Of a stretch of 60,533 nt of DNA, positions 3,068 to 53,703 are shown in pieces (positions within the stretch are counted from its first letter, which is position 1; each line of letters opens with the position of its first letter). The translations under genes and the position numbers were made by a program. The notes beneath the pieces were generated by a model. It saw nothing but the letters and a program-made list of their open reading frames with translations. It was not told the origin of the DNA and searched no databases. Source of the DNA: Oscillospiraceae bacterium. GTDB taxonomy: Bacteria > Bacillota > Clostridia > UBA1381 > UMGS1253. Where the stretch lies: positions 1 to 60,533 of the forward strand of contig SVKA01000008.1 in NCBI GenBank assembly GCA_015068725.1. The letters are read 5' to 3'.

Positions 3068-5407
3068 TCAGTTGGCCTTATACGAAACCTTAATTACACG
3101 TACAATGCCGCCACTGTTTACCGATGCATCTGCCCAAAGCTCAACAGATAAAACTCTTGATGACAAAATATCGTTTTGCGACATAGTAACATATTCACGG
3201 CTTGTCGGGTCCATACGGTAAATCACAACATCCTCATCCATTTTGTATACCTCTGTACCGACCTTTATTCTGTTATAGTCTATCGCTGCAACAGAATTAC
3301 CGCTTCCCACCTTTGTAAGTGTAACCATAGAGCTTAGCGATTTTCCGCTCACCGAAATCTTTACAGGCGTGCCGACAGACTGAGAAAAGGCCGAATTTGT
3401 CGTATATTTTGTTTCCGTACCCCTGACATTCACAACATACGTTCCCGAAATACTGCTTGCATTGTTTTTAACATCTCTCGACGTAAGAATACCATACTGC
3501 GTATTTGAGTCGGATATATCATCAAAAAGTATTACGCCGATATCTCCAAACGCCGACGTTATGGCATACGCAATGACATCGCCTTTTTCAACAGATGCCT
3601 TCTTTATGTCCGAAAGCTCAAGCTTTTTAACCGAAATACTGCCATCGGCTGTCTTTGCCAAATCAAACAATGCCGCACCATCTGCGATTGTTTTTCCGTT
3701 AATTGTTTTATCATTTTTATCGATATATCCCGAAAGGTCATTTGTATGTACCTTTACAAGCGATATAACACCGCCGTCAAAGCTCATCTTTACAAGGCTT
3801 CCTTCATAATCGGAGTAATCCTTTTTTGCGGTGTAAGTATACATCTGTCCATCGGTCTGCATAACAGTAGCCTTCTGCACAAGCTTTCCTTTATCAGCCT
3901 CGTCGGTGCTTAGTTGACTGTCCGATGAAACAAGCACCGCATAGTCTAAAAGCAAATCATTCGAAACGTTTACAACACCTGCAATATCGCCGTTTTTGCC
4001 CAAAAGCAGTGTAATTCTGTCATTTATTTTAAAGCTCGACGCACTTTCATCAAGCTTTGACTGAGCAGCGCGCGTTTCAATCGCAAAGGTTTTTCCTCCA
4101 AGCTCAATTGACGTAACATTTGCCTTATTCGGCAGTGCCTTGTCATATGTGCCCGTAACCTTGTCAATATATACATCCATTATATTCGTAGTAGGATTAT
4201 AGTATATTACATCATTTCGTTTTATCTGCGAAAGTGATGCACTGTAGCCATCGCGGTAAACACGAAGTGTAGATGGGTCCTTAATCGTAATTCCCGATAT
4301 ACTTGTATCACCCTCACTCATATCGCGGCTTGCTATCACAGGCGTAATTTTTGTCGCGCCATCAAGCATAGCATATTCCCATACACCGTCATAGCTGCCT
4401 TTAAGGGTTACTACTGCGCCCGACTCAAAGTACTGCGCAAATGATGAGTAGTTTCCGCTTTTTCCTTCATAATACATTGTAAGATTTTTATCAAATGTAT
4501 ACTCAATCTCGCCTGTATCGGATATACACACATACTCGCCGTCGCCTACAGCCTTCTTTATTGTAAGTGTGTAGCTCGCCTGCTTTTGAGGAAGCGCAAG
4601 TATAATCCTTTTTTCATCATCAAGATATAGCTTTACAACACTTCCTATCATATCAAAAACGTCATTTGTGAGCGTTTTGTATGTTGCCTGTGATGTTTTT
4701 ATGCGGTCTGCCGAAAGCGATTTATCGTTTTCATACGACGAAATAAGCGTTACCTCGTCTATAACCTCATATCCAAAATTATCAATAAGCGTCTTTTTCG
4801 ATGCAGGAGTCGATGATTTCATCTCCGCTTCAAGTCCGCGGCCAAGCAAAATTGCGCAGTCGCCTCTCGTAATAGGTGTGTCATATCCATAATCAAGCGA
4901 ATCCGTAAGCCCCAAAGCCTGTGCCTTCTGGATATAATTGTCTGGCCAGAAATCACCGATATCATCGCCCGTATAACCAAGCATACGAAGCGTTACCGTT
5001 ACCGCCTGTGCAAAGGAAATATTTTCTTCTGGATGAAAGCTTCCGTCAGGATAGCCAAGAATAATTCCGTTTTTTGAAACATAATTTATGTATTTGACTG
5101 CCCAGTGGTCAGGTGCAACGTCCTTATATGAGCTTGCGCCCGAGGTTGATACGGTTTCACCCTGTTTATCCAAAACGCATACCGCAAGCTTTGCAAATTC
5201 GGCACGCGTAATATTATCATAGGGCCTGAGCGTTCCGTCGCCATCGCCCGAAAGTATACCAAGCGTGTTTAAAAGTTTTGCATACACCCAAAACGCAGCA
5301 TCATCGGAAACATCCGAAAACACGCTGCCTGCACTTACGCTTGCAGTAATGGAAAATGCCATGCACAGTGCAAGAAAAAGAGATATAATTTTTTTAGTAT
5401 TTTTCAC
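3068..5407 (-). CDS. Secreted SLH-domain surface protein
   Basis: A secreted cell-surface protein of about 779 residues. A signal peptide (about 1-28, Lys-rich start, hydrophobic core, cut near VSAG) is followed by three SLH repeats at about 30-75, 92-138 and 152-195, with typical GDGDGTLRPYDNITRAEFAK and YPDGSFHPEENISF motifs. SLH triplets bind pyruvylated wall polymers. The remaining 580 residues are beta-rich and unrecognised. The longest frame begins at GTG 5416, but AAAGGGTG sits at the right distance from GTG 5407, which I prefer. It follows the ABC permease by 40 bases with no terminator, so it may be cotranscribed with the transporter. Confidence 0.9.
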   Translation of the reverse strand: MKNTKKIISLFLALCMAFSITASVSAGSVFSDVSDDAAFWVYAKLLNTLGILSGDGDGTLRPYDNITRAEFAKLAVCVLDKQGETVSTSGASSYKDVAPDHWAVKYINYVSKNGIILGYPDGSFHPEENISFAQAVTVTLRMLGYTGDDIGDFWPDNYIQKAQALGLTDSLDYGYDTPITRGDCAILLGRGLEAEMKSSTPASKKTLIDNFGYEVIDEVTLISSYENDKSLSADRIKTSQATYKTLTNDVFDMIGSVVKLYLDDEKRIILALPQKQASYTLTIKKAVGDGEYVCISDTGEIEYTFDKNLTMYYEGKSGNYSSFAQYFESGAVVTLKGSYDGVWEYAMLDGATKITPVIASRDMSEGDTSISGITIKDPSTLRVYRDGYSASLSQIKRNDVIYYNPTTNIMDVYIDKVTGTYDKALPNKANVTSIELGGKTFAIETRAAQSKLDESASSFKINDRITLLLGKNGDIAGVVNVSNDLLLDYAVLVSSDSQLSTDEADKGKLVQKATVMQTDGQMYTYTAKKDYSDYEGSLVKMSFDGGVISLVKVHTNDLSGYIDKNDKTINGKTIADGAALFDLAKTADGSISVKKLELSDIKKASVEKGDVIAYAITSAFGDIGVILFDDISDSNTQYGILTSRDVKNNASSISGTYVVNVRGTETKYTTNSAFSQSVGTPVKISVSGKSLSSMVTLTKVGSGNSVAAIDYNRIKVGTEVYKMDEDVVIYRMDPTSREYVTMSQNDILSSRVLSVELWADASVNSGGIVRVIKVSYKAN

Positions 5408-16978: not shown

Positions 16979-16990
16979 TAAAAAATGCCA

Positions 16991-17022
16991 AAGGCTGTGA
17001 TGAGCTTCATCACAGCCTTTTT
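16991..17022. terminator. Bidirectional terminator, mecA / mtn
   Basis: A perfect 13-bp stem (16991-17003 with 17007-17019) with a three-base loop and T-runs separates the two convergent genes. Confidence 0.85.
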
Positions 17023-33474: not shown

Positions 33475-33485
33475 TAATGAGTATA

Positions 33486-33513
33486 GAAAAAGCCGACTAA
33501 TGTCGGCTTTTTC
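33486..33513. terminator. Bidirectional terminator, dCMP deaminase / thioesterase
   Basis: AAAAAGCCGAC with GTCGGCTTTTT around TAAT; it serves both converging genes. Confidence 0.85.
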
Positions 33514-33518
33514 TATGT

Positions 33519-37193: not shown

Positions 37194-37268
37194 GCGGGAG
37201 TGGCTCAGTGGTAGAGCGTCACCTTGCCAAGGTGAACGTCGCGAGTTCGAATCTCGTCTTCCGCTCCA
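37194..37268 (+). tRNA. tRNA-Gly(GCC)
   Basis: Acceptor GCGGGAG with CTTCCGC, D-arm TGGCTCAGTGGTAGAGC, anticodon GCC in CTTGCCAAG, T-loop GTTCGAATC, encoded CCA at 37266-37268. Confidence 0.97.
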
Positions 37269-37270
37269 AA

Positions 37271-37312
37271 AAAGAAACGGTGATTTTGAGGAAAATCACC
37301 GTTTCTTTTTTT
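37271..37312 (+). terminator. Terminator of tRNA-Gly
   Basis: A perfect 17-bp stem (37271-37287 with 37292-37308) and a long T-run. Confidence 0.9.
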
Positions 37313-43017: not shown

Positions 43018-43050
43018 AAAAAACAGAGCAAAGCTCACTTTGCTCTGTTT
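43018..43050 (-). terminator. Terminator of tRNA-Leu
   Basis: AAACAGAGCAAAG with a complementary arm TTTGCTCTGTTT directly follows the CCA end on the minus strand, with a T-run after it. Confidence 0.85.
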
Positions 43051-43137
43051 TGGTGCCGGTGGCCGGACTCGAACCGGCACGGTGTCGCCACCGGTGGATT
43101 TTGAGTCCACTACGTCTGCCAATTCCATCACACCGGC
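43051..43137 (-). tRNA. tRNA-Leu(CAA)
   Basis: Class II tRNA: acceptor GCCGGTG with CACCGGC, anticodon CAA in GGACTCAAAATCC, long variable arm, GGTTCGAGTCC T-arm, encoded CCA. Confidence 0.96.
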
Positions 43138-43353: not shown

Positions 43354-44010
43354 GTGAAAAAGCTTATTAAAATTACGTCTGTAATAACAATTATAATAAT
43401 GTGCACTTCATTTTTGACGGTATATTCCCACGACCTTGGTGCTATGAGGAGTATGGGCATTGATTACTCAGCATGGGAAAAAGAAGCGCCCGTTTCTGCG
43501 CCTATTCCTACGCCACAGCCTCCCATAACATCACGCAGCTATCGGGAGGTCGAAATCGCACGTGCAACGACACTGTACGAAACTTATGCTTCGCAGGCAA
43601 ACAGAAACAACAATATGAAGCTTGCCACAGAAGCGATTGACTATACAATTATAGAAAACAACAATACCTTTTCTTTTAATAATACAGTTGGTCCCCGTAC
43701 ACAGGAGCGTGGCTATAAGGAAGCGACAATTTTTGTCGGCAAAGAAAAGGAGCAGGGTCTTGGCGGCGGTATATGTCAGATTTCATCGACAGTATATATG
43801 GCGGCAAAAAAGGCAGGACTTAAAATTTTGGAAAGATATCCTCATTCGATGCCTGTTACATACTGTTCACGCGACGACGAGGCAACAGTTTCGTGGGGCT
43901 ATCTTGATTTCAGATTTCAAAACAACACCGGCGATGCACTGCGTCTTGAAGCGTCATGCAAGGGTGGCGTCGTAAAGGTTATAATATATAAAATGATAGC
44001 ACTTGATTAA
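43354..44010 (+). CDS. VanW-family surface protein
   Basis: A 218-residue protein with an N-terminal membrane or secretion segment (about 3-25), a Pro/Ser linker and a VanW domain with FSFNNTVGPRT, GGGICQISSTVY and RYPHSMPVTYC. VanW proteins are common in Clostridia and are linked to the cell envelope; their biochemistry is unknown to me and the name does not imply vancomycin resistance. AAAGGG before GTG 43354 sets the start. It lacks the YkuD or G5 domains some homologues carry. Confidence 0.9.
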   Translation: MKKLIKITSVITIIIMCTSFLTVYSHDLGAMRSMGIDYSAWEKEAPVSAPIPTPQPPITSRSYREVEIARATTLYETYASQANRNNNMKLATEAIDYTIIENNNTFSFNNTVGPRTQERGYKEATIFVGKEKEQGLGGGICQISSTVYMAAKKAGLKILERYPHSMPVTYCSRDDEATVSWGYLDFRFQNNTGDALRLEASCKGGVVKVIIYKMIALD

Positions 44011-44027
44011 AACTGTTTTTTCAGTTT

Positions 44028-44060
44028 GGCAGCTTGCTTTATTCAGGCGAGCTGCCTTTT
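44028..44060 (+). terminator. Terminator of the VanW gene
   Basis: GGCAGCTTGC with GCGAGCTGCC, then TTTT. Confidence 0.75.
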
Positions 44061-44149
44061 ATATATAAGTTGTCATAAAAAATTCTCCTTATGAATAAAC
44101 ATTAGTAAACAGAGAAAAATAATCATAACGTGTGGAAGGAGAACTTTTG

Positions 44150-44782
44150 ATGACGCAGTACCAGGATAACAACACAGTAACCATAGCAGGTATTTTGGAG
44201 GATACCCCCGTATTTAACCACGAGGTTTATAAAGAAAAATTTTACATCTTTACTTTGCGCGTCAAGCGTCTGAGCGAAGCATATGACTACATAAAGGTAA
44301 TTTTATCAGAGCGCCTTTTTGGCAGCAAATTTGATGTGCGAAAAGGAGATTTTGTCATTGTAAACGGACAGTTTCGTTCATATAACAATTACACAGGCAG
44401 CGGCAGTCGCCTTGTACTGAGCGTATTTGCAAAGGATATACGCATCGGGACGGAAGAGGAGCTTGAAAATCCAAATCAGATATACCTTGACGGCTTTGTG
44501 TGCAAAGAACCAGTGTATCGCACAACTCCATTCGGGCGCGAAATTGCAGATGTGCTTTTAGCAGTAAACCGCTCCTACAACAAATCCGACTATATCCCAT
44601 CAATAGCATGGGGACGAAATGCAAAATTTTGCCGTGATATAAGTGTCGGCTCGAGAGTGAGAATATGGGGCAGAATTCAGTCGCGCGACTATCAAAAACG
44701 CCTTGACGACGAAACTGTTGTTACTAAAACGGCATATGAAATCTCAATCGGCAAAATGGAGCTCGTTTTAGACGAGGGATAA
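44150..44782 (+). CDS. Double OB-fold, SSB-like protein
   Basis: A 210-residue protein containing two OB-like segments: about 1-105 (VTIAGILEDTPVF ... KGDFVIVNGQFRS) and 108-210 (IYLDGFVCKEPVYRTTPFGREIADVLLAVNR ... GSRVRIWGRIQSRDY). Both resemble single-stranded DNA-binding proteins, with the second more typical. It lacks the acidic C-terminal tip of a replicative SSB, so it is probably a specialised or accessory ssDNA-binding protein. AGGAG before ATG 44150 sets the start. Confidence 0.82.
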   Translation: MTQYQDNNTVTIAGILEDTPVFNHEVYKEKFYIFTLRVKRLSEAYDYIKVILSERLFGSKFDVRKGDFVIVNGQFRSYNNYTGSGSRLVLSVFAKDIRIGTEEELENPNQIYLDGFVCKEPVYRTTPFGREIADVLLAVNRSYNKSDYIPSIAWGRNAKFCRDISVGSRVRIWGRIQSRDYQKRLDDETVVTKTAYEISIGKMELVLDEG

Positions 44783-44799
44783 TTTTCTATAACCAACAA

Positions 44800-44830
44800 A
44801 AAAGCGGAGAGTATATCCCCGCTTTTATTT
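44800..44830. terminator. Bidirectional terminator, OB-fold gene / rqcH
   Basis: AAAAGCGG with CCGCTTTT flanked by A- and T-runs between convergent genes. Confidence 0.7.
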
Positions 44831-46594
44831 TTTTAATTTTTCTGCTAATTCTTCATCAGGCTCTATATAAATCGTGTTGTAATTCTCATATATAACCATT
44901 CCCGGCTTTGCCCCCGACGGCTTTTTCACGTTTTTTATCCGCGTATAATCGACCTCTACCTTTGGCGAGTTTTTCGCCGAGCTGTAAAACGCCGCAAGAG
45001 ATGCCGCCTCAAGCATTGTCCTGTCAGGAACGTCTTTATCGAGTCCAAGCTTTATAATTGTGTGCGAGCCTGCAAAGTTTTTTGTATGAAACCATATATC
45101 CGAGCTGTTTGCAAGCTTTAATGTAACATAATCATTTTGTGTGTTGTTTTTGCCCACATATATATCAAAGCCATCACTGCTTACAAAATGCATCGGCTTT
45201 GACGGTTGCTCGTTTTTTCTTTTACGCTCATTGGTGCGCGCATTTACATATCCTTGCGAGCACAGCTCGCTGCGAATTGACGAAATGTCCTCTTCATCTG
45301 CGGCAAGCGATATATTCTGCATTACACTTTCAAGATATAAAAGCTCCTCATTTGCTATTTCAAGCTGTTTTTGTGCCTGCTCCAAGGCCACCTTTGCCTT
45401 ATTGTACTTTTTATAGTATCTTTGTGCATTTTGCTGTGGCGTTATAGACGTGTCAAGCGGAATTATTATATCCTCACACTGCTCGGAGTAAAAATTTTGC
45501 ACAACCACGCTTTTTTCGCCATCGTTAATACGGTAAAGGTTTGCAGTAATAAGATCTGCATACAGTTTATGACGTTCGCGGTCGCGCGCACCGTCGATTG
45601 TTTGCTGCAAGAGCACAAGCTTTTTTGCGCAGCGGTCAATATTGTTTGCCACAAGCTTTGCAAGCGCAGCAGTTTTTTGTTTTTTTCTTTCCTCACTGTC
45701 GCGCAGAGCGTAATACGCCTCCACCGCCTCGCTTATCGAGCTGCATTTTTGCACATTTGCCATTTGCTGATACTGCTCTATATTGTGAGCGCAAAAATCA
45801 AGCGGTCTTTTGCTTACCTTGTCGTATATTATACAAGGCTCAAAGCGTTCATTTTTAATATCCTCAAACAAAGAAAAAATACTGTCACAAAGCAATTTTT
45901 GCATCCCGGGACTAAGCGAGGACACAAGAAAATCCGTTCCTTGAAGTGCCCTATGACACATCTCGCGCGCCGCAAGCGGACTTATCCCCTCAAAGCTTTG
46001 CACTATCAGCTTGTCCGCCTTGATTTTCTCATCGGCTGATTCAATAACCCTCACAATATCGGAATACTCACATTCAAGCGGATTTATCTTATCCTGCGGT
46101 GGCGGACAAGAGTACATCATGCCCGGAAGAATTTGTCTGACGCTCGAAAGCGTAAAATCTATATGCTTTATACTGTCAAGAATTTTACCTCCGTCATCTG
46201 TGAGGATTATATTTGAATGCTTACCCATTATTTCAATTATCAGATGCTTTATCGTAAGGTCGCCAAGCTCTGTATACGATTCTATGCAAAAATCTATGCT
46301 TCGCTCAAGCCCTTTCTGGCGCACCGCTATTAGCTTTCCGCCGCAAAGATGCTTTCGAAGAAGCATACAAAACATCGGTGCCGACAACGGATTTTTCTTT
46401 GATATCTCGCTAAAATGCGCGCGCGGATTTGACGAACTTGCCGATAAAAGCAGCTTTTTTGTTCCGTTTATGGAGCGAAACGTCATCGTAATTTCATCTT
46501 TTTCGGGCTGATATATCTTGTCAACCTTTGAAGACAAAATTTCGGTATTAAACTGTTTTACAAGAGCATGTACTGCTATACCGTCAAGTGCCAT
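44825..46594 (-). CDS. rqcH: Ribosome quality-control factor RqcH (NFACT family)
   Basis: Binds stalled 50S subunits carrying peptidyl-tRNA and adds Ala tails (bacterial NEMF/Rqc2; once named fibronectin-binding protein). The 589-residue protein starts with the NFACT-N type MALDGIAVHALVKQFN, has the long central coiled coil (about 270-430) and the C-terminal NFACT-R domain with SSDGFDIYVGKNNTQNDY and FHTKNFAGSH. GGAGGGGG stands four bases before ATG 46594. Its leader contains a hairpin (46624-46649). Confidence 0.95.
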   Translation of the reverse strand: MALDGIAVHALVKQFNTEILSSKVDKIYQPEKDEITMTFRSINGTKKLLLSASSSNPRAHFSEISKKNPLSAPMFCMLLRKHLCGGKLIAVRQKGLERSIDFCIESYTELGDLTIKHLIIEIMGKHSNIILTDDGGKILDSIKHIDFTLSSVRQILPGMMYSCPPPQDKINPLECEYSDIVRVIESADEKIKADKLIVQSFEGISPLAAREMCHRALQGTDFLVSSLSPGMQKLLCDSIFSLFEDIKNERFEPCIIYDKVSKRPLDFCAHNIEQYQQMANVQKCSSISEAVEAYYALRDSEERKKQKTAALAKLVANNIDRCAKKLVLLQQTIDGARDRERHKLYADLITANLYRINDGEKSVVVQNFYSEQCEDIIIPLDTSITPQQNAQRYYKKYNKAKVALEQAQKQLEIANEELLYLESVMQNISLAADEEDISSIRSELCSQGYVNARTNERKRKNEQPSKPMHFVSSDGFDIYVGKNNTQNDYVTLKLANSSDIWFHTKNFAGSHTIIKLGLDKDVPDRTMLEAASLAAFYSSAKNSPKVEVDYTRIKNVKKPSGAKPGMVIYENYNTIYIEPDEELAEKLKK

Positions 46595-46623
46595 GACGCC
46601 CCCTCCTTTTTTAGCATAAAATC

Positions 46624-46649
46624 ATGACTACCGGCAAGCCGATAGTCAT
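46624..46649 (-). repeat. Hairpin in the rqcH leader
   Basis: ATGACTA at 46624-46630 and TAGTCAT at 46643-46649, plus inner CGG-CAAG-CCG with a single C-A mismatch in between. It lies between the rqcH promoter and start codon. On the minus strand TGATTTTATG follows, a short T-run. Confidence 0.6.
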
Positions 46650-46683
46650 ATAACGCATATTTTTCACAATAAATTACTTTTTA

Positions 46684-46712
46684 ATTATACAATAACAACT
46701 CTAATTTGTCAA
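46684..46712 (-). promoter_or_regulatory. Promoter of rqcH
   Basis: Minus strand TTGACA (46712-46707), 17 bases, TATAAT (46689-46684): full consensus. Confidence 0.85.
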
Positions 46713-46725
46713 TCTTATGTGTTTT

Positions 46726-47250
46726 TTATAATACAAACAACATTGATGCCAAAATCCGATATTTTTCTTTTTTCGCCTGTTCGCGCGTCAGAACCTGAAC
46801 ACTACCTTCTTTATCACACAAAACAAGCTTGCTTTTCTTTTCACCGCGCTGCGCAACCAATATAGCCTCGCGGCCCTGCCACATTATTTTTACGGCAAAA
46901 ATATCTGCGTTTATCTCTTCTATTATCGGCGCTTGTATGTACTCGCTTGCCTCGGTTACAATAAACTTTGGTAAATCAAGCACCGTGTCATGACTTACAA
47001 GCGGTATTTTTTGTGAAATAATATATTTTTTACCCTTTTCATACATGCTTTTCGAATCGCCTATAAGATATGCAACTCTTACCCCAAAATACCTGGCAAG
47101 TACAACGAGATTTTGTGTGCGTGGTACCGTTATATCATTCTCATAATTTGAGATTACACTTTGTCCAACACCAATAATCTCTCCGATTTCTGCCTGTGTT
47201 TTATTATGAATTGTTCTTAAAAATTTTAATCGTTCTCCTAATGTAAGCAT
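46726..47250 (-). CDS. XRE-family regulator with S24-like C-terminal domain
   Basis: DNA-binding regulator of 174 residues. The N-terminal HTH (about 5-60) has LRTIHNKTQAEIGEIIGVGQSVISNYE. The C-terminal part (about 85-174) is beta-rich and recalls the LexA/S24 peptidase fold, but I see no Ser-Lys dyad, so it is probably only a dimerisation or sensing domain. GGAGG before ATG 47250. It lies 37 bases behind a second XRE gene. Confidence 0.83.
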   Translation of the reverse strand: MLTLGERLKFLRTIHNKTQAEIGEIIGVGQSVISNYENDITVPRTQNLVVLARYFGVRVAYLIGDSKSMYEKGKKYIISQKIPLVSHDTVLDLPKFIVTEASEYIQAPIIEEINADIFAVKIMWQGREAILVAQRGEKKSKLVLCDKEGSVQVLTREQAKKEKYRILASMLFVL

Positions 47251-47287
47251 TTTTTCGTCCTCCGATTTTTTGTATCATAATAATTTA

Positions 47288-47527
47288 TTATTTTTTCTCG
47301 TTTCCGTAAAATATCGTATCAAAATCAATGCTTAATATTTCCTTAATCAAAAGTATCTCATCAGGATATAAATGTCTTTGTCCTACTTCTATTTTAGCAA
47401 TAGCACTACGAGTAATATCGCATCCTCTTAATTGTAATTTTGCTGCCAATACATCCTGAGTCATTTTTGCATTTTCTCTTGCAAGACGGATATTTCGACC
47501 TATTTTTAATTCAATATCTTTATTCAT
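47288..47527 (-). CDS. Small XRE-family regulator
   Basis: 79 residues, essentially one HTH domain: IGRNIRLARENAKMTQDVLAAKLQLRG with DITRSAIAKIEVGQRHLYPDE. AAGGG lies about ten bases before ATG 47527; TTG 47536 is also possible. It is transcribed away from secA and precedes the larger XRE gene by 37 bases. A TATAAT at 47579-47574 is its likely -10; a palindrome covers the -35 position. Confidence 0.82.
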   Translation of the reverse strand: MNKDIELKIGRNIRLARENAKMTQDVLAAKLQLRGCDITRSAIAKIEVGQRHLYPDEILLIKEILSIDFDTIFYGNEKK

Positions 47528-47591
47528 AAAACTCAATCCCTTGCACTTAAATTAGAACAAAAGTCTTGGTTTTATTATAATTCGATACAAC

Positions 47592-47625
47592 ACCGATAAT
47601 GCTCCTATATAGGTGCATTATCGGT
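47592..47625. repeat. 34-bp near-perfect palindrome, operator-like
   Basis: Arms ACCGATAATGC (47592-47602) and GCATTATCGGT (47615-47625) are exact reverse complements around a centre CCTATATAGG (47604-47613) that is itself palindromic; only the two joining T bases fail to match. It lies between the XRE pair and secA and covers the -35 position of the XRE promoter. Confidence 0.8.
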
Positions 47626-47815
47626 TGAAACAAATTCTTTTACCCCAAAATAACTGTTGCAGAGGTGATTTTCGAATAAACACACCTAAAAACAATTAAT
47701 CCATTTATAATAAATTCATAAAGTTTTTACAAATAAATATGGTAATTAAATAAAATTAGTGTTATACTTATATATAGTTGTAATTTTTATAAGCAGTTTC
47801 AGGAGGGAAGCCTAT

Positions 47816-50551
47816 ATGGGCATGTTTGAAAAAATATTCGGAACATATTCCGACAGAGAGATAAAACGCATTATACCAATTGCAAAAAAGATTATGGACT
47901 ATGACGAGCAGTATTCTTCTCTTAGCGATGCGGCTCTTCGCGCAAAAACAGATGAATTCAAAGCTCGCCTTTCAAAAGGTGAAACACTTGATGATATACT
48001 GCCCGAGGCATTTGCTGCTGTACGCGAGGCATCGTGGAGAGTGCTTGGCATGAAGCATTTTTATGTGCAGATTCTCGGCGGTATTATACTTCATCAGGGA
48101 AGAATTTCCGAAATGAAAACAGGTGAAGGTAAAACTCTGGTATCTACTCTTCCTGCGTATCTTAATGCACTTACGGGCAAGGGTGTGCACATTGTTACGG
48201 TCAATGATTATCTTGCAAAGCGCGACAGCGAATGGATGGGCAAGGTATTTAAATTTATGGGACTTAGCGTAGGTCTTATTATACACGATTTAGACTCCGA
48301 GCAAAGAAGAGCAGCATACAACGCAGACATCACATACGCAACAAATAACGAGCTTGGCTTTGATTATCTTCGTGATAATATGGTAACGTATAAAGAAGAG
48401 CTTGTTGGCCGCGGCCAAAACTATGCCATAATCGACGAGGTTGACTCAATTTTGATTGACGAAGCAAGAACGCCTCTTATAATATCGGGCGCAAGCGGAA
48501 AATCTACCGAGCTTTACACTCTTGCAAACACTTTTGCAATAAAGCTTCGAGTAAAATATGTAAAGCAATCCGACGATAAAGAGCTTGACGAGCAAATCGA
48601 CGCAGATTATATCGTAGATGAAAAAGCAAAAACAGCTACGCTCACTCCCAAGGGTATAAAAAAAGCAGAAGAATTTTTTAATATTGAAAATCTGTCAGAC
48701 CCTAACAACATGCTTATCAGCCACCATATAAACCAGGCTATCAAGGCTCACGGCGTTATGAAACGCGACCGTGAATATGTTGTAAAAAACGGCGAAGTAA
48801 TTATCGTTGACGAATTTACGGGCCGTATGATGATGGGAAGACGTTACTCCGACGGACTTCATCAGGCAATCGAAGCAAAAGAACACGTAAAGGTTGAACG
48901 CGAGAGTAAAACTCTTGCGACAATTACCTTCCAGAATTTTTTCAGACTTTACACAAAGCTGTCGGGTATGACAGGTACAGCCCTTACAGAAGAACAGGAA
49001 TTTCAGCAGATTTATAACCTTGATGTTGTGGTTATACCCACAAACAAGGATATGATCAGAAAAGATTTTGACGATGCCGTATATAAAAATACAATTGGCA
49101 AATATAACGCTATTGTAGAGCAGGTAATTGCATGTCATAAAAAAGGTCAGCCCGTGCTTGTTGGTACAGTTTCGATTGAGAAATCGGAGCTTATAAGCGC
49201 TATGCTTAAAAAGCGCGGCATAAAGCACGAGGTGCTAAATGCCAAATACCATGAAAAAGAAGCCGAAATCATCGCTCAGGCGGGCAAAAAAGGCGCGGTT
49301 ACGATTGCGACAAATATGGCGGGCCGTGGTACAGATATCATGCTTGGCGGTAATGCCGAGCATATGGCAACACACGAAATGCGCCGTCTCGGTTTTAGCG
49401 AGGAGCTTATCGTAGAATCGACAAGCTATTCTGAAACGACAGATGAAGAAATTCTGAATGCAAGACGCACATTTAAAGAGCTTAATTTAAAATACAAAGA
49501 GCAGATACGCCCCGAGGCAGAAGAGGTAGCAGAGGCGGGCGGTTTGTTTGTAATAGGTACAGAGCGCCACGAATCACGCCGAGTTGATAATCAGCTTCGC
49601 GGACGTTCGGGACGTCAGGGCGATCCCGGCGCATCAAAATTCTTTTTATCGCTTGAAGACGACTTAATGCGTCTTTTCGGCTCGGAAAGAATAAGCATGA
49701 TGATTGACCGCGTGGGCATCGAGGATGACCAGCCGATAGAAGCAAGACTTTTGTCAGGCGCTATTGAAAATGCTCAAAAGAAGGTCGAGGGACACAACTT
49801 TGACATAAGAAAGCACGTGCTCCAGTTTGACGAGGTTATGAACGAGCAGCGCAAGATGATATATTCACAAAGAAGAAAAGTACTTGACGGCGAGGATTTA
49901 CATTCGACAATCCTTCATATGATGGATGAGGTAATAGACTCTACCGTGGACAATTATACCGCCGCAAGCGCTCCTGATGACTGGGATTTTGAAGGTCTTG
50001 GGGCTTTTGCAACATCGATGTTCTTTGCCCCCGAGGATACGTTCAAGCTTTCCTTTGATGAGCTTAATTCCATTACTCGCGAGGATATAACAGAAAAGCT
50101 ACACGCTCTTGCAGACGCAAGGATGGAGTATCAGAAAGAAATCTTTGGCGATAATATGGCAGAGCTTGAAAGAGTGGTGCTACTGAGAGTTGTTGATACA
50201 AAATGGATGGACCATATAGACGATATGGACCAGCTCAAAAACGGCATAGGCTTGAATGCTTACGCGCAGCGCGACCCCGTTGTCGAATACAGACTCGTCG
50301 GCTCGGATATGTATGATGAGATGCTTGCCAATATATCGCACGATACTGTGCGCTATGTTCTAGGCGCAGCGCCTGCAAGTGATGCTCTCGAAAGAAAGCA
50401 GGTCGCAAACCCGACAAGTGCGAGCCATGGCGGCGATAACAGTATAAAAAAGCAGCCCATCGTAAAAGCCGAAAAAGTCGGAAGAAATGACCCCTGCCCG
50501 TGCGGAAGCGGCAAAAAATACAAAAAATGCTGCGGTCTTAATGAAGAATAA
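47816..50551 (+). CDS. secA: Preprotein translocase ATPase SecA
   Basis: Motor of the general secretion pathway, working with SecYEG at the membrane. 911 residues. Walker [11 protein letters not shown] (about 100-110), [36 protein letters not shown], and the C-terminal zinc-binding SEC-C motif [19 protein letters not shown] are present. AGGAGGG eight bases before ATG 47816 sets the start; the frame open to 47759 is not used. It is followed by a terminator. A second copy or accessory SecA cannot be excluded outside the window. Confidence 0.98.
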
Positions 50552-50556
50552 TTTTC

Positions 50557-50587
50557 AAAAAAAGGTGTGATAATTCACACCTTTTTT
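50557..50587. terminator. Bidirectional terminator, secA / murC
   Basis: A7-GGTGTGA with TCACACC-T6, a four-base loop, between convergent genes. Confidence 0.85.
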
Positions 50588-50599
50588 ATATGCAAAAAT

Positions 50600-51979
50600 T
50601 TATTTTTCTGTTAAAATCTCCGAGATTTTATAAACGTTTCCCGCTCCCATTGTAATTACAATATCACCTTCGCCGATTATACTTTCAAGCTGCAAGGCAA
50701 TTTCGTCAAACGAGCTTATATATACGGCATTTTGGCCACGCTCCGAAAGTTTTTTTGACAAATCACTTGCATGAATCTTTCCCGTATCTTTTTCACGCGC
50801 GGCATAAATGTCTGTTACAATTATTTTATCTGCATCATCAAACGCTTTTGAAAACTCATCAAGCAGTGCTTTCGTGCGCGTATATGTATGCGGCTGAAAA
50901 ACCACATAAAGCTTTCCTTTACACATACTGCGTGCGGTTTTGAGAGTGCACATAATCTCTGTCGGATGATGCGCATAATCGTCTATAATACACGCTCCGT
51001 TATTTTCTCCCTTTTTTTCAAAACGTCTGTGAACAAGCGTAAATTTTTCAAGTCCCGCTGCCGCTTTCTCACCATCAAGTCCAAGTACATACGCACTGGC
51101 AAAGCCCGCAAGAGCATTTAAAACGTTGTGCTCGCCTGCGACGCCGAGGCGGACATGTACGATTTTTCCACCATACTCCACATCAAATTCGCCGCACCCA
51201 TCATTATATTTCAAATTTTTGGGGCAAAATATATTTTTTTCGTCAAAGCCATAGCTTAAAACAGTAGCCTTGACATTTTTTACACATTCCATTGCGTTTT
51301 TATCATCACCGCATACGATGACATAACCATTTTCATCGGGAATCTCGGCAAACTGACAAAACGCCTGTTTTATATGTTCAATATCCTTGAAAAAATCAAG
51401 ATGGTCCTCATCAACATTTGTTATGATTGCAAGCCTTGGAAAAAATTCTAAAAATGAGCAGTGATACTCGCACGCCTCGGTCAAAAAATACTCTGACTCT
51501 CCCACACGCATATTGCCGCCTATTACGTCAAGCTCTCCTCCGAGCATAATTGTCGGGTCGCATTCACACTCCAGCAAAACGTGCGAAAGCATTGACGTCG
51601 TAGTAGTTTTGCCATGCGTTCCGGCAACACATATGCTGCTTTTGTAATCACGCATAATTGCTCCAAGAAAGATCGAGCGTTCCACGCAGAGTATCCCATT
51701 TTGTTTTGCGGCTATGAGTTCTTCATTTTCGGCATTTATCGCCGCCGTATATACAACAAGGTCAGCCCCGTTTACATTTTCGCTGCTGTGTCCTTTATAA
51801 ATTTTTGCCCCCGCAGCTGTAAGCTGTCTTGTAATATGTGTTTCGTTTATATCCGAACCGCTGATAATATATCCGCGCTTTATGCATATATGAGCAAGTG
51901 CGCTCATACTGATTCCGCCTATACCTATAAAATGTATATGTGCCGACTCTTTTATATCAGACATATAAAAATTATTCAT
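50600..51979 (-). CDS. murC: UDP-N-acetylmuramate-L-alanine ligase
   Basis: Adds L-Ala to UDP-MurNAc in peptidoglycan synthesis. It has the N-terminal IHFIGIGGISMSALA (UDP-binding), GTHGKTTTTSML (ATP loop at about 120), ITNVDEDHLDFF and a C-terminal Mur ligase domain with DDYAHHPTEI. 459 residues is normal. GGGAGTGA about nine bases before ATG 51979. It is transcribed away from the spoVG region. Confidence 0.97.
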   Translation of the reverse strand: MNNFYMSDIKESAHIHFIGIGGISMSALAHICIKRGYIISGSDINETHITRQLTAAGAKIYKGHSSENVNGADLVVYTAAINAENEELIAAKQNGILCVERSIFLGAIMRDYKSSICVAGTHGKTTTTSMLSHVLLECECDPTIMLGGELDVIGGNMRVGESEYFLTEACEYHCSFLEFFPRLAIITNVDEDHLDFFKDIEHIKQAFCQFAEIPDENGYVIVCGDDKNAMECVKNVKATVLSYGFDEKNIFCPKNLKYNDGCGEFDVEYGGKIVHVRLGVAGEHNVLNALAGFASAYVLGLDGEKAAAGLEKFTLVHRRFEKKGENNGACIIDDYAHHPTEIMCTLKTARSMCKGKLYVVFQPHTYTRTKALLDEFSKAFDDADKIIVTDIYAAREKDTGKIHASDLSKKLSERGQNAVYISSFDEIALQLESIIGEGDIVITMGAGNVYKISEILTEK

Positions 51980-53667: not shown

Positions 53668-53703
53668 AAAATGGCAATATGCACAGTTGCATATTGCCAT
53701 TTA
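53668..53703 (-). terminator. Terminator of the KDG-kinase-like gene
   Basis: Perfect 13-bp stem ATGGCAATATGCA with TGCATATTGCCAT and a T-run on the minus strand. Confidence 0.8.

Follow-up and report, generated by a model that had tools for sequence, protein, structure and literature searches.

The 34-bp palindrome at 47592–47625 contains a conserved 20-bp element (O1) that is the predicted operator of the small XRE-family protein encoded beside it, here called XRE1. The best explanation of the data as a whole, and one that we consider very probable from the comparison of related loci, is that XRE1 represses its own gene through O1 and a second, weaker site (O2), with one of the two promoter sides having decayed in the window (the whole 60,533-nt stretch of DNA analyzed here). 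This reading draws on the conservation and position of O1, its spacing from O2, the loss of a promoter, and the rarity of the site. The initial annotation had suggested that the palindrome could be the operator of the small XRE protein and might also influence secA; the comparison supports the first suggestion and not the second. The features to which the text refers are as follows.

46726–47250, minus strand: XRE2, a 174-aa HTH_3 protein whose gene starts 37 nt after the XRE1 stop
47288–47527 (stop codon included), minus strand: XRE1, a 79-aa HTH_3 protein and the proposed repressor, identified by its HTH_3 match, its structural model, and fold matches
47541–47560, minus strand: predicted O2, a weaker operator copy in the XRE leader (TTGTTCTAATTTAAGTGCAA, 16/20), 58 bp from O1
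47566–47594, plus strand: relic of a divergent promoter, TTGGTT-17-AACACC where relatives have TTGACA-17-TATAAT
47574–47579, minus strand: −10 hexamer TATAAT of the XRE1 promoter, within a TATAAT column conserved between O1 and O2
47592–47598, no strand: XRE-proximal outer arm, not conserved in sequence, overlapping the place of the divergent −10 in relatives (47589–47594)
47599–47618, no strand: predicted O1 operator core, ATGCTCCTATATAGGTGCAT, matching TTGCACYTATATARGTGCAA at 17 of 20 positions; the same motif precedes 75 of 80 homologous genes
47619–47625, no strand: outer arm on the secA side, symmetric with 47592–47598
47816–50551, plus strand: secA, the neighbor across from XRE1, probably outside the control of O1

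The palindrome and its inner core

An inverted-repeat search recovered the palindrome with 16 of its 17 pairs matched, as two 18-nt arms that overlap by 2 nt and are 94% complementary. The description in the initial annotation, 11-bp arms around a 10-bp palindromic core with a lone mismatched pair, was accurate: the core is CCTATATAGG at 47604–47613, and the mismatched pair is T/T at 47603/47614. So was the statement that elements of this kind are rare in the window, which contains 2 even-centered palindromes with a score of at least 14 compared with none in 60 order-1 Markov shuffles. The second of these, which by its position is the inverted repeat at 37268–37311, looks like a terminator by eye. 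Further strong inverted repeats lie at 16990–17020, 33483–33516, 43020–43051, and 53669–53702, and most of the set, including 37268–37311, resemble intrinsic terminators by eye, with an A-run and a T-run. Folded as single-stranded DNA, the palindrome at 47592–47625 has −13.2 kcal/mol (z −9.0), and its other strand −12.9 kcal/mol (z about −9).

The −35 of the XRE promoter had been placed under the palindrome. This position does fall inside an arm (47597–47602), although the hexamer found there, GCATTA, is a poor one. The genome-wide search for the arms that had been proposed returned the exact 11-bp arm at one further place, C44:7490, which by our own reading lies inside a dehydrogenase-like coding frame and is therefore probably a chance occurrence. 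With up to one mismatch, the arm occurs 26 times forward and 23 times in reverse in the window's genome, a mild excess over the reversed control (15 and 14). The arm as a repeated element was rejected; of the further places, the one read was C44:7490, the only exact extra copy. What is conserved among relatives is the inner 20 bp (47599–47618), not the symmetric 34 bp, and the length of the palindrome alone overstates the size of the operator.

Conservation and rarity of O1

The genome collection contains 446 relatives of XRE1, and the loci analyzed are the best 80 of these. A motif close to TTGCACYTATATARGTGCAA (at least 16 of 20 positions) precedes 75 of the 80 genes, or 76 of 81 loci when the window is counted, and lies about 75–110 bp upstream of the small XRE gene; in a Markov control, 2 of 16,200 reached the same score. 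O1 could not be recognized in the remaining 5 homologues (L060, L070, L100, L111, and L126), and the window's copy, at 17/20, belongs to the more diverged ones. A search of 101 genomes found XRE1 homologues at E ≤ 0.001 in 66, mostly distant. It also gave 16 relatives of 55–75% identity, 15 with O1 at a score of at least 17 and one (L025) without it; 5 of these 16 are on the same contigs as loci of the best 80, and the two sets overlap to that extent.

Searches with the site itself lead to the same genes. The 18-bp core TGCACYTATATARGTGCA, allowing 1 mismatch, is present in 16 of the 101 genomes at one site each, and its reversed control in none. Fifteen of these sites adjoin an XRE1 homologue, while the sixteenth (G033) is at a contig end, the contig breaking inside an apparent ATG-AAT-AAA that is likely the start of the same XRE gene. 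A search of 391 genomes of the class for the exact 20-mer gave 5 genomes, of which 2 already belonged to the 101, and in all 5 the site adjoins an XRE1 homologue. O1 is thus a palindrome that the regulator's own promoter keeps and that seldom occurs at other places. A wider XRE1 regulon is ruled against by the single O1 site, at up to 3 mismatches, in the window's genome, which is 88.6% complete.

XRE1, XRE2, and a sister subfamily

XRE1 matches the HTH_3 family (PF01381) with an E value of 6e-7 and 29.8 bits, above the cutoff of 23. Its structural model, with a mean pLDDT of 92.9, consists of the HTH domain only, and alignment and model together place residues 40–47 (RSAIAKIE) in the predicted third helix. 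The nearest solved folds are those of the controller proteins C.BclI (TM 0.80, 26% identity) and C.AhdI. XRE2 is probably co-transcribed with XRE1, to judge from the gene arrangement, and would then be under the same operators; an NFACT/RqcH-like gene follows downstream. The best relative of XRE2 among 61 genomes, at 45%, comes from G001, a genome of the same genus, and the 3.5-kb locus of that relative contains no XRE1 match.

A sister subfamily, 40–46% identical to XRE1, has a recognition helix with TREA or TRES instead of TRSA. In 4 of the 5 such loci listed, the palindrome GGACTRATATYAGTCC stands in the corresponding place, ahead of a promoter block of the same kind, the exception being L032. 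With up to 1 mismatch, GGACTRATATYAGTCC occurs in 6 of the 101 genomes, and 5 of the 6 sites adjoin a sister-type XRE gene; because the reversed control also hits 5 genomes, the evidence lies in where the sites are and not in how many there are. The site therefore changes together with the recognition helix, on one contrast and not along a series. A sister-type XRE gene with GGACTRATATYAGTCC (up to 1 mismatch) near its start was seen in L157, L158, L160, L161, and L162. The half-site of the sister palindrome resembles the C-box of controller proteins, GACT...AGTC.

Two predicted operators around two promoters

A second copy, O2, scoring at least 14 of 20, is present in 64 of the 76 loci that have O1 (window included), at a distance of 57, 58, 59, or 60 bp in 13, 36, 12, and 3 of them, and a clear O2 is absent from the other 12. 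The 15 O1-bearing relatives of 55–75% identity divide into 11 with O2 at 14 or better and 4 with none, and the spacing is 53–54 bp in four relatives from the 101-genome search (L017, L020, L022, and L024). Locus L177 has three operator copies in equal steps of 56 bp, 31–143 bp upstream of its XRE gene. When L100 is compared with L098, O1 and the stretch with the divergent gene are missing and O2 is unrecognizable, with the XRE proteins 97% identical.

The consensus of the 36 loci with 58-bp spacing, taken between O1 and O2, is anntATtATAaCAtnnnnnTATAATAAtGTCAAG. Read away from the XRE gene, it is TTGACA-17-TATAAT, often with TG before the −10, and 70 of 76 loci keep 10–12 of these 12 hexamer bases. 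The divergent −10 ends 4 bp from O1 in 68 of the 70, and 49 of the 70 have the TG. This places O1 on the predicted start site of the divergent transcript and on the XRE −35, and O2 in the early leader. The window is one of the 6 loci outside this group: its divergent promoter is lost, and the XRE −10 TATAAT is kept. A promoter consensus scan of 47480–47860 listed no site and missed the XRE1 promoter too, and is thus weak evidence either way.

From this layout, a mechanism can be proposed in which a dimer of the 79-aa XRE1 would bind O1. The XRE1 promoter would be bracketed by O1 over its −35 and O2 over the early transcribed region, so that bound XRE1 would repress its own gene and XRE2. In most relatives, where O1 also lies on the predicted start site of a strong opposite promoter, XRE1 would silence one neighbor as well. 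The segment that runs from O1 to the XRE stop codon, about 330 bp long, would have come to adjoin many different genes, and in the window, where the divergent promoter and gene would both be gone, O1 would survive as an autoregulatory site. Controller proteins are known for activation at low dose, and by analogy XRE1 may act in the same way.

Changing neighbors on the divergent side

A divergent reading frame of at least 35 aa with a ribosome-binding-like site lies within 200 bp of O1 in 63 of the 75 O1-bearing relatives and is absent in 12. These genes were called mechanically, and the calls are doubtful for L087 (which probably starts at a missed GTG), L091, L093, and L099. The 63 neighbors fall into 46 families, 36 of them with a single member, and are unrelated proteins of lipoprotein-like, zinc-ribbon, repeat-bearing, and membrane-like character. 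Among the Pfam families listed for them (25 of 39) are zinc ribbons (8 members), DUF4190 (5), copper amine oxidase N-terminal domains (4), BspA-type repeats (3), and DUF5067 (3). Between O1 and secA, the window has no divergent frame of at least 40 aa. A remnant of a divergent gene at 47619–47830 was considered and rejected, with no match to the 80 loci or the 63 divergent proteins.

The edge of homology between related loci coincides with O1. Of 125 locus pairs with XRE identity of at least 80% and enough flank, 105 lose DNA homology between −25 and +12 bp relative to the outer edge of O1, 19 keep it beyond, and 1 loses it earlier; outside these 125 are 4 pairs without a match, 13 that were too short, and 23 without O1. 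When window positions 44001–50600 were compared with the 80 loci, matches (to 56 loci) were restricted to 47270–47640; 17 of these 56 alignments pass through O1 and 21 end at 47575–47584, in the decayed promoter. Such an edge is partly expected from selection on O1 alone, and only pairs that also share flanks argue for exchange. L076 and L087 have both chromosomal flanks in common (91% and 89%) and carry O1-XRE units that are 88% identical, and the roughly 930–945 bp between are without detectable homology, which resumes 5 bp before O1. L101 and L133 have the same pattern with a shared left flank (76%). These two pairs suggest that neighbors have been exchanged at O1. A third pair, L058/L063 (a 221-bp stretch, 77%), was also flagged and given no weight.

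Covariation of the outer arms

The 7-bp outer arms that give the palindrome its full length lack sequence conservation, but the two arms of a locus covary. A symmetric extension of at least 5 contiguous bp beyond the core occurs in 17 of 73 distinct loci (window included), compared with a mean of 1.16 and a maximum of 6 in 2000 shuffles of arm partners, and with 0 of 73 in mirror and shifted controls. After similar flanks were collapsed, 9 of 48 loci were extended, whereas 5000 shuffles averaged 0.48 and never exceeded 4. O2, a poor palindrome, is extended in 0 of 61, and 30 of the 73 distinct O1 loci have no extension at all. Because the position of the divergent −10 falls within the arms, and no predicted transcript includes them, a stem in mRNA does not explain the covariation, which suggests a cause at the level of DNA, such as template switching or cruciform formation.

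The first of these is possible, though we hold it tentatively. Under template switching, the arms, and with them the 34-bp length, would have arisen during replication by single copying events on the O1 hairpin, and in the window, where the arm ACCGATA covers part of the lost −10 place, the arm on the secA side would have been copied over the divergent −10, killing that promoter. The perfecting of inverted repeats by template switching is documented (PMC8794818 and PMC3820800). Extension far above the shuffled controls and its absence at O2 are consistent with such events, as are two pairs of loci, L061/L068 and L087/L102, among whose differences is a compensated change at the first position of the arm. 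However, extension is no commoner in perfect cores (7 of 23) than in cores with one mismatch (9 of 34), and this comparison lends template switching no help. Selection acting on a cruciform or on DNA shape would produce the same statistic, in which relatedness is only partly controlled, and the choice of template arm in the window is a guess.

Selection for a DNA cruciform, which supercoiling between divergent promoters would extrude from the extended palindrome and which would add a structural switch to the operator, is distinctly improbable. The stable hairpin on both strands, the TATA center, and the covarying arms are what such a structure would have; however, the 30 loci without extension indicate that it is not required, and one of the two promoters between which the cruciform would act is gone in the window.

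A broader scenario joins these observations: XRE1 and O1/O2 would form a portable repressor cassette of Clostridia with exchangeable genes on its divergent side, a hairpin-forming O1 would be both the junction for swaps and the site at which template switching rewrites the promoter, and the window would be an end state in which copying of an arm erased the guarded −10 and the gene was lost. In this full form we find the scenario unlikely.

Mobile elements, secA, and transcription termination

The stop of homology at O1 and the changing neighbors could also point to the end of a mobile element or a recombination site. In L061 and L068, XRE1 is followed by a RAYT-like transposase frame, and a relative is encoded by 3 short phage-labeled records and 1 IMG/VR contig. 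Against this stand the lack of a recognizable transposase frame beside the window's copy and the lack of a plasmid match. The window's genome has one O1 site, so the unit has no second copy as a boundary, and the combination expected of a transposon end or a RAYT-REP system, a transposase in the unit together with paired ends, was not found. We regard this reading as very unlikely. An origin of XRE1 as a plasmid or phage gene was rejected, given no plasmid match and 3 short, unannotated phage-labeled records; the one of these that was read, L179, carries both O1 and O2.

The frames in L061 and L068, which we take to belong to the RAYT family, are of the Y1 type and lie at or just after the XRE1 stop, at 3221–3709 in L068 and, broken by stops, at 1392–1868 in L061. 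RAYT-like frames were seen only in L010/L061 and L011/L068, with fragments in a few other loci, among them L066 and L119. A REP-like inverted repeat, GGGAGGG...CCCTCCC, is found inside the RAYT-like frame.

Control of secA together with the XRE genes, with O1 at the center of a shared divergent control region for protein export, is slightly less likely again. O1 does lie between the two diverging genes. No XRE homologue was found before secA in 8 related genomes, of which 7 have 1.5 kb of upstream sequence; in the other, G001, secA starts 174 bp from the contig end, and this genome accordingly says little. In the window, 190 bp separate the palindrome from the start of secA, and the divergent promoter usually covered by O1 has been lost. 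A candidate secA promoter, with an extended −10 (TGTTATACT, 47760–47768, picked by eye), is more than 130 bp past the palindrome.

That the palindrome is a transcription terminator or mRNA hairpin is scarcely credible, since, although it folds well, it is followed by a T-run on neither strand, is absent from the terminator scan, has no Rfam match up to E 1 in 46500–48500, and lies between divergent genes with nothing to terminate.

Comparison with known systems

The controller proteins C.AhdI, C.BclI, and C.Esp1396I have the same HTH_3 fold of about 80 aa and, as in the case of XRE1, two sites by their own promoter. The operators of C.Esp1396I are inverted repeats centered on TATA, like O1, and 2 dimers bind side by side on 35 bp as described in PMC4041747, whereas O1 and O2 are 57–60 bp apart. 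Most controller proteins tested use GACT...AGTC half-sites in the account given in PMC4824078; the O1 half-site is TTGCAC. Of the features that mark controllers of restriction-modification (R-M) systems, XRE1 has the small fold of C.AhdI and C.BclI, and adjacent OL/OR C-boxes of the GACT...AGTC type were not found at XRE1 loci. No R-M genes lie beside the window's copy, whose neighbors encode XRE2, the NFACT/RqcH-like protein, and SecA, and no R-M family is among the Pfam families listed (25 of 39) for the 63 neighbors on the divergent side.

RcoLS20 and PrgX are XRE-type regulators larger than XRE1. RcoLS20 of plasmid pLS20 regulates its own gene and has two operators lying across two divergent promoters, and PrgX of pCF10 is likewise bound at two operators; both are described in PMC6540685 as tetramers that loop DNA and control conjugation genes, PrgX through a peptide-binding C-terminal domain. 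XRE1 differs in its length of 79 aa, its chromosomal location, and its single, changing target. Most relatives have the layout of two operators and two divergent promoters, while the window retains the XRE1 promoter only, and neither a conjugation target nor a C-terminal domain for oligomerization or peptide binding was found in XRE1 or among the window's neighbors. Where mutation by template switching has been described at quasipalindromes (PMC8794818 and PMC3820800), the two arms of an imperfect inverted repeat are converted into exact copies of one another. Unlike in those cases, the substrate proposed here would be a repressor operator and promoter in natural genomes.

Significance

No paper on this operator or module appeared among the open-licence listings searched. 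The uniform operator-promoter-operator design with its changing neighbor amounts to a natural series on how a regulator gains targets, and the covarying arms allow a test in bacteria of the role of template switching in shaping regulatory palindromes and of its ability to inactivate promoters.
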